A DNA stretch of 39,869 nucleotides, from positions 1-39,869 of the forward strand of contig JALGUG010000008.1 in assembly GCA_029820995.1 (NCBI GenBank). The letters are read 5' to 3'. The stretch comes from Candidatus Zipacnadia bacterium. Its GTDB lineage: Bacteria > Armatimonadota > Zipacnadia > JALGUG01. The position numbers and the translations under genes were made by a program. The notes beneath the pieces were generated by a model that was not told where the DNA came from, did no database searches, and worked only from the letters and a program-made list of their open reading frames with translations. Shown here piece after piece: positions 13,432 to 29,898 of the stretch (positions are counted from its first letter, which is position 1; each line of letters starts with the position of its first letter).

Positions 13432-14625
13432 CTAAGGGAAGTATTGAAGCTGCACTACCCACGCCGAGAACCTCTGGTCCAGCCCTCGGTGGCCGGTCAC
13501 ATAGTTGAGCTGCACCTGGCGACGGTAGTCCCGCAACCGCCAGGTGAGGCCCAGCGTGGTCAGGTTTACCTCCCGGTGGTCGGCATGGTCGTCGTACGGA
13601 TCGAACCGTTCGACTCGAGCCGCGACCGTACATCGCTTGGTCAGGTCCCTGGCCAGTTGCAGATACCATCCACTGGCGTCACGAGAGCGCAGTGAGCCGT
13701 CCGCCTCATAGCGCGCCGAGAAATACTCGGCGCGCGACCGCCATTTGCTCTTCGCCGCCGCGAACTGTATGTTCCAGCGCGTGTCCCGTCCGGAGAAGTG
13801 GTCGTAGCCGTCAGCCCGAGAGCCCGGGAGCTGTCCCGTGAAGTTGATGTCCTGGTCGCGGCGCGTCGCGGCTGCGATCCCCAGCTTGAGCCGGTCCAGG
13901 GTGCCGGATACGGGAGGACGCCAAGTGACCCAGCCGCAAAGCAACGGGCCGTTGCAGTGAAAACCGCCACGGGCTCCCTCGCCGCCGAAAGCTCCCAGCG
14001 CCCACCATACTCGGCCGCTCCCGGTGGTGCGTTCAATCTGCAGTCCCAGATCGCGCGCTAATGATTCCCCCAGCTTCCCCGCGGGGATTAGTCGGTCAGT
14101 GGCCTGAGTCCGGTCCACAAGATCCAGCCGATAGTCATTGGTGAAACGCTCCATGCCCATCGGAGGCTTGAACACCCCCAGCGTCAGACGCGTGGCGCCC
14201 CACCTTTGCATCAACCTGGCATCCTGAAGATATAGGTGCTCGTCGGTGGCACTCGCATTGCCTGACTTGTAGAGCAATTGGATCCGGGCAGACAGGCCCC
14301 GCGCCAGACCATATCGCCCGATCAGCTTCGACCGACGCAGGGAAATGTGGTCGTTCTTGCCCTGGGGCGAGCTTAGACGAACCTGAACGTAGCTCTGCCA
14401 CGCGGCAGGCTCCGCGGTTCGCGAGGGTTTCGCCGAATAGCCCTTGGTCCGCTTCAGCCCCTGTGCCGCCAGCGGGCACGTGAGCAACAGGATGATCGCC
14501 CCGGTAATGTACCTCGTCTGCAGTCCTCCCAATGCATCACAGCGGTCCGGCTTTGCAGTCTGTGCGCAACTTCCGTCCGCAGGCCGGTCGCGTTGGGCCC
14601 TTCGGGTGGGCGTCTCACTGTCCAT
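13432..14625 (-). CDS. Outer-membrane porin-like protein (porin O/P-like)
   Basis: Signal-like ITGAIILLLTCPLAAQG; amphipathic beta-rich pattern (SLRRSKLIGRYGLARGLSARIQLLYKSG; LGVFKPPMGMERFTNDYRLDLVDRTQATDRLIP). Start uncertain. Confidence 0.65.
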   Translation of the reverse strand: MDSETPTRRAQRDRPADGSCAQTAKPDRCDALGGLQTRYITGAIILLLTCPLAAQGLKRTKGYSAKPSRTAEPAAWQSYVQVRLSSPQGKNDHISLRRSKLIGRYGLARGLSARIQLLYKSGNASATDEHLYLQDARLMQRWGATRLTLGVFKPPMGMERFTNDYRLDLVDRTQATDRLIPAGKLGESLARDLGLQIERTTGSGRVWWALGAFGGEGARGGFHCNGPLLCGWVTWRPPVSGTLDRLKLGIAAATRRDQDINFTGQLPGSRADGYDHFSGRDTRWNIQFAAAKSKWRSRAEYFSARYEADGSLRSRDASGWYLQLARDLTKRCTVAARVERFDPYDDHADHREVNLTTLGLTWRLRDYRRQVQLNYVTGHRGLDQRFSAWVVQLQYFP

Positions 14626-22766: not shown

Positions 22767-22809
22767 TCTGGCTAGTGCGCAGATCCGGCTTTCCTGGAGG
22801 TGCTGATCG

Positions 22810-24138
22810 GTGCATCTGGCGAAGCGTCTTCGGCTCGTGGCATCGGTCGCGACACTGCCGGCCCTGTTGCTGCTGCTGGTGGGCTGTGGCGGCAGCGGCG
22901 GCCCGGCGGCCGTGCGCCGCGACATCACGGGCCCGCAGCTTCTCGCCATGATGGACGATGGCCGGCCGCTTCAGCTTGTAGACGTCCGCACGCCCGCTGA
23001 ATACGCCGCCGGCCACATCCCCGGCACCGTCAATCTTCCGCATACTGAGGTTGACATCTGGGCGGATAGTCTGATCAAGCAGCAGCGCGTTGTGTGCATC
23101 TGTCGGTCGGGCGTCCGCAGCAAGCTGGCGGCCGACGCGCTGATTGCCAAGGGTTTCCACCAGGTCTATAACCTGCTGGGCGGGATGCTCGAATGGACCG
23201 GGCCGGTGGAGACCGAGGACGCTTACCGGATCAACAATCTGGCGAATGTCCAGCTCAACGGCGCCGGCGATTCCGCCGCGGTGGACCCCGGAGAGAATAT
23301 CACCGGCCGGTTCGATTGCGCCCTCTACAACGGCGGAAGCCACGCCGGGGAGGTCCACACTGTGGCGGTCGGCTTGCGCAACGACGTGGGCGACTGGGTC
23401 GGCGGCGAGCCCGTGGTGCCGGCCCAGCTAGCGGCCCAACCCGGTGACGCCGGCGGAATCGCCTACAGCAATTGCCAGTTCATGCTCTCGACCGCCGGCC
23501 TCCCGGCCGGGGCCACGTGTACAGTGTGGGTGCATGACCAGTCCACAGACCTCGACGCCGAGGCGATCCAGGGATTCAAGGCCGCTCGGCCGATGGCGCC
23601 CGGTGACACCGACAAGCCTCTCGGCACCGTCACGATCAACCAGCCGCCGGCGCCGAGCTACTACTACATCGCTCAGATCGCCAATGTGCACCTCACCACT
23701 GAGGGCTGCGGCGCAACGGCGGCTTGCGCCGGCTGCGCCCAATTCGGGCCCGACCTATCGGTCAAACAGGGCAAGAGCTTCCGAGGCTGGTTTGACTGCC
23801 GGCTGTACGACAGCGGCGACTACGCTGATGCCGTACACACAGTCGTTGTGGGTCTGCGCGACGCCGGCGGCCATTGGATCGGAGGCACGCCGGTCATACC
23901 CGGGCAACTCTCTGCGGCCCCCGGCAGCACCGGCGGCACCTTGTATACCCACTGCGAGTTCGATCCACTCTCAACCGTCGGCATAACGCCGGGCGCGACC
24001 TACGACCTCTGGGTCCACGACGAGCCGACCGGCAGCCCTGATGACGCGATCGGAGCCTTTCAGGCGCTTACGGTCCAGGTCGAAGGCCCCCGCGACAAGA
24101 TCATCGGGCTCGTCGAGATCACTCCCGGCGGCGGCTGA
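22810..24138 (+). CDS. Rhodanese-domain lipoprotein with two tandem copies of an unrecognised domain
   Basis: Lipobox-like LLLLLVGC; rhodanese LVDVRTPAEYAAGHIPGTVNLP and CRSGVRS active-site loop; two homologous about 140-aa units follow. SD tggaggtg before GTG. Confidence 0.85.
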   Translation: MHLAKRLRLVASVATLPALLLLLVGCGGSGGPAAVRRDITGPQLLAMMDDGRPLQLVDVRTPAEYAAGHIPGTVNLPHTEVDIWADSLIKQQRVVCICRSGVRSKLAADALIAKGFHQVYNLLGGMLEWTGPVETEDAYRINNLANVQLNGAGDSAAVDPGENITGRFDCALYNGGSHAGEVHTVAVGLRNDVGDWVGGEPVVPAQLAAQPGDAGGIAYSNCQFMLSTAGLPAGATCTVWVHDQSTDLDAEAIQGFKAARPMAPGDTDKPLGTVTINQPPAPSYYYIAQIANVHLTTEGCGATAACAGCAQFGPDLSVKQGKSFRGWFDCRLYDSGDYADAVHTVVVGLRDAGGHWIGGTPVIPGQLSAAPGSTGGTLYTHCEFDPLSTVGITPGATYDLWVHDEPTGSPDDAIGAFQALTVQVEGPRDKIIGLVEITPGGG

Positions 24139-26358: not shown

Positions 26359-28011
26359 GTGTCGGTAGATCGAGGGTTAGGGGTGATCGCCGTGGCCGAA
26401 CGACTAGGCGACCGGTATGAAGCAGTTAAGGAGTTGACGCGGCAGGACCACTGTCGCGGTCTGCGCGCCCGCGATGTGTTGCTGGGCCAGAGCGTGCTGG
26501 CGGTGGCTCTGGAGCCCTCGGCGGCGGTGCTCGGAGCACAGCGAGACCGTCTGGCGGAGGCTTTCCGGAAGGAGTTGCGGGCTGTGTCGCACTGCGCCGA
26601 CGCACGAATCGCGGCGCCGATCGAGTTGCGATTGGAGGGAACGGAGCCCTTTGCGATCTTCGAAGATCCGGCTCGTCCCTCGCTGGCCGAGCGACTGCAG
26701 CGCTCCGTGTCCTGGGAGCACGCCATTACGCTGGCTCGCGATCTCTGCGATGTCCTGAGCTTACTCCAACAGCAGGGGCTGCAGTTCACCGCGGTCCCGC
26801 TGCCGTTCCTGTTCCGCACCGACGAGGACCGCCTGCGGTGGGTGCATCTGGGGATCGGCAACCTGACGGACAGCCCCACGTCGCTGGCCGCGGCCGGGCG
26901 GACCGTCTCCGCGCCGCACGCCTCGCCCGAGGAACTGCGCGGCGGGCCGGTGAGCGGGCGGTCACTGGTGTTCTCCGTCGCGGCCGTGCTGTATGAACTC
27001 CTATGCGGCGCCCGTGCCTTCCCCGGAGAGACGGTGCCGGAGATTCTGGCTGCGATGGACCGCGGTGAACCCGAGCCACTGTGGCTGAAGGATAGCATGA
27101 TCCCGGGCGATCTGGCGGACCTGGTTCAGCGTTCGCTGCAGGCCGATCCGGACCGCCGTCCGGCCGACCTGCAGGCCTTCGCGCAAGAGCTGGCCGCGGC
27201 CGCCGAGAGCTTGACGCCGGGCGTGCCGGCCGAAGAGCACGCCGCCGCCGTCCCGCTGCCGCCGGCAGCTCCGCTCGCTGAGCCGCAGCCCGAGCCGGAG
27301 GAAGCTCCGGAGCCTGTCGAGACGGCCGCGGCCGTGGAAGTACCGGAGACGGCCCAGGCAGCCGGGCAGCAGCCGCAAGAGCCCGTGGAGCCGACCTTGG
27401 CTGTGCCCGCCGAGCCGGTGGAGGCTCCCGCGGAGGCCGTCGGGGCTGCTCCCGAGCCCGCTGAGGAGAAGGCGACTGCCGAGCCGGGCAAGTCATACCT
27501 GAAGGCGATCCTCATCGGCGGCGCCGCGGCGGTTTGGCTGGCGCTGACCATCGGGGCGTTGGCTCTGACCTGGAGCAAGTTCGCCGGGCAACCGGAGCCG
27601 GCAGTGCCGAGCGCCGCGGCTGTGCCCATTCAACCCGCCGCACCCGTGGAGCAGCCGCCGGCCGTTGCTCCGAGGGCCGAAGCGCGACCGGCTGCGCCTC
27701 CGACAGCGGCTCCCGAGCTCCCGGCACCTCGCGTGCCGCCGAGCGCGGCAGCGCCCGCCGCACCGTCCCGCCCGCCGACGGCGACCGTGCCCCGGGTGCG
27801 CGTTCGCAGACTCCGTCGGGCACGGCCGCACGCAGCACCGCCGCGGTACGTCCGTCTGCCGGGAATGACCCGCGCGGTTGACATCCGCCATTCGCCGGTG
27901 GCGAGCCCGGTCCCGGGCGGTTCGTACGGCCGCAGCTCCGGGTACGCTTTCCGCAATCCGAGCTTCCATCCGAACTCCAAGGCGGCGAGGATCAGGCGCG
28001 CGGGCTGGTGA
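26359..28011 (+). CDS. Membrane-anchored Hanks-type kinase-like protein, probable pseudokinase
   Basis: Kinase-fold traces (ASPEELRGGPVSGRSLVFSVAAVLYELLCGARAFPGETVPEILAAM; ADLVQRSLQADPDRRPADLQAFAQEL), Ala/Pro/Glu linker, TM AILIGGAAAVWLALTIGALAL, Pro/Ala-rich tail. Lys, HRD and DFG motifs not found. Confidence 0.7.
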   Translation: MSVDRGLGVIAVAERLGDRYEAVKELTRQDHCRGLRARDVLLGQSVLAVALEPSAAVLGAQRDRLAEAFRKELRAVSHCADARIAAPIELRLEGTEPFAIFEDPARPSLAERLQRSVSWEHAITLARDLCDVLSLLQQQGLQFTAVPLPFLFRTDEDRLRWVHLGIGNLTDSPTSLAAAGRTVSAPHASPEELRGGPVSGRSLVFSVAAVLYELLCGARAFPGETVPEILAAMDRGEPEPLWLKDSMIPGDLADLVQRSLQADPDRRPADLQAFAQELAAAAESLTPGVPAEEHAAAVPLPPAAPLAEPQPEPEEAPEPVETAAAVEVPETAQAAGQQPQEPVEPTLAVPAEPVEAPAEAVGAAPEPAEEKATAEPGKSYLKAILIGGAAAVWLALTIGALALTWSKFAGQPEPAVPSAAAVPIQPAAPVEQPPAVAPRAEARPAAPPTAAPELPAPRVPPSAAAPAAPSRPPTATVPRVRVRRLRRARPHAAPPRYVRLPGMTRAVDIRHSPVASPVPGGSYGRSSGYAFRNPSFHPNSKAARIRRAGW

Positions 28012-29146: not shown

Positions 29147-29773
29147 CTAGAAGTCGTAGCTGGGGTGCCAGTACCGCTGGTCGTCGAGGTCGTTCTTCTT
29201 CATCCACTTGGCGTGTCCGTCGTAGAACCCCACATTCAGGCCGTCGTTGTGCGGATCCTGAACGCGGCTGGTGAAGTAGTACCGATGACTATCGCCGGCG
29301 GGGCGCCAGGCTGCATAGCCGTAGTAGTCGTTGTCGCCGATCATCACTTTCTGCGAGGGCGTGTTGCACTGCGCCAGTGAGCGATTGTCCATGTCCATAT
29401 TGTCCCAGTAGGACAGCCCGACTCCCTGTCGGCCCGCGGGAGCGTTGGGCCGCAGAACCTGGTCCCCCGTCTGGGCTGCGTCCGACGGGCAGACGAAGAC
29501 CTGAAAGTTCTTCACATAGGGCATCACAACTTCGTGGGTGCAGTACAGCCAGTTGTGGCCCGAGTCTCCGCAGCGATGGATGCACGTTCGCTCGTCGTAG
29601 TCCTGGAAGTACATCAAATACCCGAGGCTGATCTGCTTGACATTCGACAGGCAGCTTGTCTGCCGCGCCTTCTCCCGCGCCCTTGCGAACACCGGGAACA
29701 GGATCGCGGCCAGGATCGCGATGATCGCGATTACCACCAACAACTCAATCAAGGTGAAACCTCTGTTGCGCAC
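29147..29773 (-). CDS. Type II secretion/type IV pilin-like prepilin with DUF1559-like C-terminus
   Basis: [47 protein letters not shown] aggagg spaced for GTG at 29773. Confidence 0.92.
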
Positions 29774-29898
29774 TCGCAGCACCTCCTGTAGTTTGTCCCG
29801 ACCAGAACATCAAGACTTCTTCGTCATCAGAACACAACCTACCGCCTTTATTAACCCGCTGGCACCGCAATGGTTCCAACAATCTCAGTATACGCCGC

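Follow-up and report, generated by a model that had tools for sequence, protein, structure and literature searches.

The window analysed here, a stretch of 39,869 bp, is one whole contig of a 5.5-Mb draft assembly (481 contigs, 5.27% contamination). Based on the open reading frame, its translation and codon usage, positions 22810..24138 on the + strand were assigned to a gene for a predicted rhodanese lipoprotein with two C-terminal beta-sandwich units; it starts with GTG at 22810, runs to the stop at 24138 and encodes 442 aa. A GGAGG motif at 22796..22800 (+), 9 nt 5′ of the start codon, is a probable ribosome-binding site as read from the sequence. Over the part that encodes the units (23221-24135), codon usage scored +0.235 bits per codon in the annotated frame vs −0.097 or less in the five others, so that only the annotated frame is supported there. 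The gene lies between an MDR dehydrogenase gene and a convergent methyltransferase gene; valyl-tRNA synthetase and FAD oxidoreductase genes are also found upstream and a class II aldolase gene downstream. None of these five flanking genes offers a sulfur-related context.

Several other features of the window were recorded. On the − strand, positions 13432-14625 carry a gene for a Porin_O_P-like outer-membrane channel (PF07396, E = 3.9e-7) and positions 29147-29782 a gene for a prepilin-like protein of the type IV-pilin-like kind. The product of 26359-28011 (+) contains a protein-kinase-like domain (PF00069, 28.3 bits, below the cut-off of 31.7) followed by a Pro/Ala-rich C-terminal half, and is possibly a degenerate kinase. 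A MocA-type oxidoreductase gene contains, close to its 5′ end, a perfect tandem duplication of 45 bp (331-421; 2.0 copies, 100%), through which GQRAHLPNFLQSDKC occurs twice within the Rossmann region of the protein; the duplication is either a recent mutation or an assembly artefact.

The first 26 residues of the rhodanese protein (22810..22887, +) read as a lipoprotein signal peptide. By eye, the leader VHLAKRLRLVASVATLPALLLLLVGC contains a charged n-region, a hydrophobic stretch and a lipobox with its cysteine (LLLLLVGC; lipobox LVG/C26), of which the Gly-Cys pair is invariant in ten aligned relatives from the same bacterial class. Judged from this leader, the protein is predicted to be an exported lipoprotein. 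Residues 43-130 (22936..23199, +) form the rhodanese domain, which matches PF00581 with 73.2 bits (curated cut-off 22.2; E = 2.6e-20) and has relatives in the PDB. Its active-site loop, C96-x-C98-RSGVR (23095..23118, +), was located in the alignment of the ten relatives; the six-residue loop proper, CRSGVR (residues 98-103), opens with the catalytic C98 and closes with R103, and C96 sits two residues before C98. Arg-type rhodanese loops have been catalogued, and yeast Rdl2 depends on its loop-end arginine to cleave thiosulfate (PMC8533005). By its Pfam score and active-site loop the protein is a rhodanese, with predicted enzyme activity, and an extracytoplasmic sulfurtransferase is the best reading of leader and intact domain together. 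An earlier note made from the sequence had called it a lipoprotein with an intact rhodanese (CRSGVRS); both descriptions hold, and the lipoprotein-type leader speaks against a non-exported protein.

Curated models for named rhodaneses all scored below their cut-offs: the PspE models TIGR02981 and NF007627 reached 26.5 and 26.3 bits (cut-offs 126.3 and 102), the GlpE model NF001195 43.5 bits (cut-off 102), and the ExtH model NF040901 10.6 bits (cut-off 200, E = 0.2). Identity as PspE, GlpE or ExtH was rejected on these grounds. PspE, the periplasmic rhodanese of Escherichia coli, which is not known to be a lipoprotein, resembles the catalytic half of our protein in being a single-domain rhodanese, but it lacks C-terminal units and its models match the window protein well below cut-off. 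ExtH of Geobacter sulfurreducens is a rhodanese-family lipoprotein discussed as an outer-surface component (PMC6148476), and it is this outward-facing rhodanese lipoprotein character that the window protein is predicted to share. One might imagine that the protein works like ExtH, as the outer-surface rhodanese in an electron-transfer conduit, given the same broad layout of a rhodanese lipoprotein of similar size (ExtH, 49 kDa) and the Porin_O_P-type gene about 8 kb upstream (13432-14625). However, the NF040901 score falls far short of family membership, the window differs from the ExtH setting in its lack of cytochrome-type genes, and a check of the 30 main ORFs of the window turned up no CXXCH motif. 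We consider this role extremely unlikely.

A search with the first 137 residues detected rhodanese matches in 23 of 46 genomes of the class. The best matches are lipoprotein rhodaneses; lower-scoring matches are rhodanese proteins of other kinds. Short, mostly single-domain lipoproteins of about 140-165 aa predominate among the closest relatives. Identity to the window protein over the rhodanese domain is about 40-67%, and the closest relatives reach up to 58-68%. Ten of these unnamed short lipoprotein rhodaneses (L100-L106 and L108-L110) were compared. In the alignment the lipobox Gly-Cys, D58-V-R60, C98, L122, G124, G125 and W129 are invariant, and R103 is kept in at least 90%. The relatives thus share with the window protein the lipobox, the D-V-R motif and the catalytic Cys loop, and mostly also the extra cysteine two residues before the catalytic one, but most of them stop at about 140-165 aa and none of the ten carries the beta-sandwich units. 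By sequence comparison the rhodanese half is therefore ordinary for its lineage, a member of a class-wide lipoprotein family, and since it corresponds to a common short lipoprotein of the class, the window protein is less special than it first appeared.

The same comparison yielded further observations. The C-x-C arrangement occurs in eight of ten aligned lipoprotein rhodaneses; its carriers are the window protein (23095-23103), L100, L101, L103-L106 and L108, and it could form a vicinal redox pair. Cys-rich tails (e.g., CGCGS or CGCGP) close some of the aligned proteins. L101 (G008:C3, a 251-aa ORF) is a tandem rhodanese lipoprotein, in which domain 1 has lost the catalytic loop (CIGADTEDGASAR) and domain 2 retains CASGAR. 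Directly upstream of L105, L106, L108 and L109 lies a gene for a PF01663 phosphodiesterase-type protein of 270 aa that is conserved among them (59-73% identity), and a small HTH protein further upstream is common to L104, L105, L106 and L108. Around the class relatives we found no sulfur operon; the shared upstream neighbour is the PF01663 protein, which offers no link to sulfur.

C-terminal to the rhodanese domain, unit 1 comprises residues 138-282 (23221..23655, +) and unit 2 residues 283-442 (23656..24135, +), the latter with an extra loop that contains C300, C306 and C309. Both were delimited by their match to each other and by AF2 models. The two units are 44% identical (E = 1e-37), and their raw alignment score of 303 compares with at most 70 in 5000 shuffles. 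Their aligned codons show 58.5% nucleotide identity, and the same codon is used at only 29 of 67 identical residues, which indicates an old duplication at the protein level rather than an assembly duplicate. In line with the earlier note, which had proposed two homologous units of an unrecognised domain within similar limits, a Pfam search of the units returned nothing above cut-off; the best match was DUF5979 (13.9 bits vs 25, E = 0.087), to unit 1 only.

The units themselves were encountered in this protein only. Searching with a two-row profile of the units revealed no credible match in 290 further genomes from the phylum of the window, in 340 from that of a Chloroflexi genome or in ten others, and a PDB sequence search with the unit profile gave no match. 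Likewise, no unit relative was found by degenerate-peptide scans of collections of genome contigs and viral contigs or by tblastn in plasmids and phages. Weak profile matches from the phylum of the window (L004-L009; E-values between 4e-4 and 1e-2) and from the source genome (L091-L093) were rejected after residue-by-residue reading; several of them have internal stop codons or only short or low-complexity aligned stretches. L129 and L130, from the phylum of the Chloroflexi genome, are equal in strength to these rejected matches and were not accepted. In the phylum of a Verrucomicrobia genome, of which 388 genomes were searched, the two-row profile detected one marginal relative. This protein, L096 (G601:C27, a 1726-aa frame), is an NHL-repeat protein with a domain that resembles unit 1, including WVGGEP and a closing LGSVTV; the domain scored 94 against unit 1 (shuffle maximum 59) and 93% in hhalign. 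Since its E-value of 1.2e-4 per genome implies roughly 0.1 chance matches over about 1000 genomes, kinship is not established, and on sequence the L096 domain is a possible distant relative. No further relatives of it were found in 240 genomes of its class, and a profile that included it retrieved nothing new in the phylum of the window or in the PDB. At the sensitivity used, the units thus look like orphans seen in this protein only; the source genome is the only one of its family among the genomes searched, so their absence elsewhere may reflect sampling.

Because the fusion is known from one draft assembly of 481 contigs with 5.27% contamination, and from none of the relatives, it could be an artefact, a frame or assembly error that joined two genes. 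The gene is, however, a single open frame with coherent codon usage throughout, and the valyl-tRNA synthetase of the same contig is closest (61%) to that of MAG CSMAG_2321, which belongs to the same phylum as the assembly; searches of the phylum of the MAG and of that of the window returned the same two matches at identical coordinates. An artefact is therefore, in our judgement, very unlikely.

AF2 modelling of single units, one of the checks that the earlier note had proposed, gave a beta-sandwich, for which Foldseek returned only generic Ig-like folds. Unit 1, modelled with unit 2 and the L096 domain as input, reached a pLDDT of 83 and a pTM of 0.81, and unit 2, for which unit 1 was the sole partner sequence, a pLDDT of 74 and a pTM of 0.74. 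Both models show strands, one helix and a last strand in the same order, and hence the same kind of beta-sandwich. Their Foldseek neighbours include Ig-like domains, Wzt carbohydrate-binding domains, NPC2, adhesin repeats, S-layer domains and beta-sandwich accessory domains of glycoside hydrolases. No match had E ≤ 0.001 for either model; the best reached E = 1.6e-3, TM-scores were low and query TM-scores mostly 0.25-0.5, and the fold therefore does not reveal any binding function. From these fairly confident models, the beta-sandwich class of the units is fairly clear, with Ig-like as the candidate fold. The units share this overall class with the Wzt, NPC2, adhesin and glycoside-hydrolase accessory domains, but differ from them in the helix before the last strand and in the lack of any sequence match.

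The presence of adhesin repeats, S-layer domains and carbohydrate-binding domains among the Foldseek neighbours would suit a protein in which the units are the functional part, in surface adhesion or ligand binding, and the rhodanese is passive or has lost its function. Non-catalytic rhodanese domains do exist, e.g., domain 1 of L101, which is devoid of the Cys loop. The window protein, however, has kept its catalytic loop and the family residues that flank it, all of them conserved throughout the class, and we regard a passive rhodanese as unlikely.

Each unit retains two cysteines, as had been claimed before: C170 of unit 1 (in FDC; 23317..23319, +) is equivalent to C330 of unit 2 (23797-23799), and C222 (in NC; 23473..23475, +) to C382 (23953-23955). 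Further cysteines, which the earlier note did not mention, are C237 in unit 1 and C300, C306 and C309 in the extra loop of unit 2. Within each unit the paired cysteines are 52 residues apart. In the AF2 model of unit 1 they occupy unit residues 33 and 85 on strands 26-36 and 80-90, and in that of unit 2 residues 48 and 100 on strands 41-51 and 95-106. The pairs do not make up a CXXC-type motif, and the units, being mainly beta domains with one helix, do not show a thioredoxin fold; in the marginal relative L096 both positions are occupied by other residues. With the pair placed on two beta-strands and absent from L096, a structural disulfide is a better explanation than a sulfur acceptor. According to the models, one disulfide per unit (C170/C222 and C330/C382) is most likely, and a cross-strand disulfide is plausible.

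The competing view is that the units form a sulfur-acceptor or thiol-disulfide module, whose Cys pairs would receive sulfane sulfur from C98 and then serve as a store, as a carrier to a further acceptor or as the reductant of the persulfide. It can draw on the retention of two cysteines at equivalent positions despite the deep divergence of the units, on the three additional cysteines in one loop of unit 2, and on known rhodanese-redox fusions; TsoB, a rhodanese/DsbD fusion-like selenoprotein (NF045694), was matched via its rhodanese part. Against it, the pairs form no CXXC-type motif, and the two cysteines are placed on sandwich strands, not in a loop or a thioredoxin-like site. L096 has other residues at both positions, and the rhodanese relatives do without the units altogether. 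Nothing tested favours the unit cysteines as sulfur carriers. We rate such a module as improbable, and its boldest form, a new envelope sulfur-relay domain whose Cys pair is loaded with sulfane sulfur by the rhodanese of the same lipoprotein and supplies an extracytoplasmic target, as highly improbable. Where a disulfide or a sulfur-acceptor pair had been put forward, the disulfide is the likelier and the acceptor or redox function is not supported; of the proposed extracytoplasmic sulfur-transfer or redox protein, sulfur transfer is supported by the leader and the intact rhodanese, and a redox role of the unit cysteines is not.

Overall, the protein is likely an extracytoplasmic rhodanese of the single-domain type, held by a lipid anchor and extended at its C-terminus by two tandem Ig-like beta-sandwich units. 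For such a lipoprotein, the lipobox cysteine would be lipidated and anchor the protein to an envelope membrane. C98 would accept sulfane sulfur from thiosulfate or a persulfide, assisted by R103 at the loop end, as the conserved residues suggest, and would hand it to a small thiol or a protein thiol, as in PspE-like and Arg-type rhodaneses. The units, each stabilised by one disulfide, would, to judge from their fold class, keep the catalytic domain at a distance from the membrane, bind a partner protein or a polysaccharide of the envelope, or do both. A precedent for the chemistry is PspE, which makes sulfane sulfur from thiosulfate with glutathione as acceptor (PMC10215317).

ExtH shows that rhodanese lipoproteins at the cell surface have a precedent. 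The new element is the pair of uncatalogued units, an extension of a known kind of protein, and with them comes one small domain family absent from the catalogues. While the fusion is known from one genome, its practical importance is limited. Extracytoplasmic rhodaneses are common and their targets mostly obscure, and a lineage rich in lipid-anchored ones offers a handle on substrate or partner. One rhodanese of this lineage that has gained binding-type domains may provide a route toward either.
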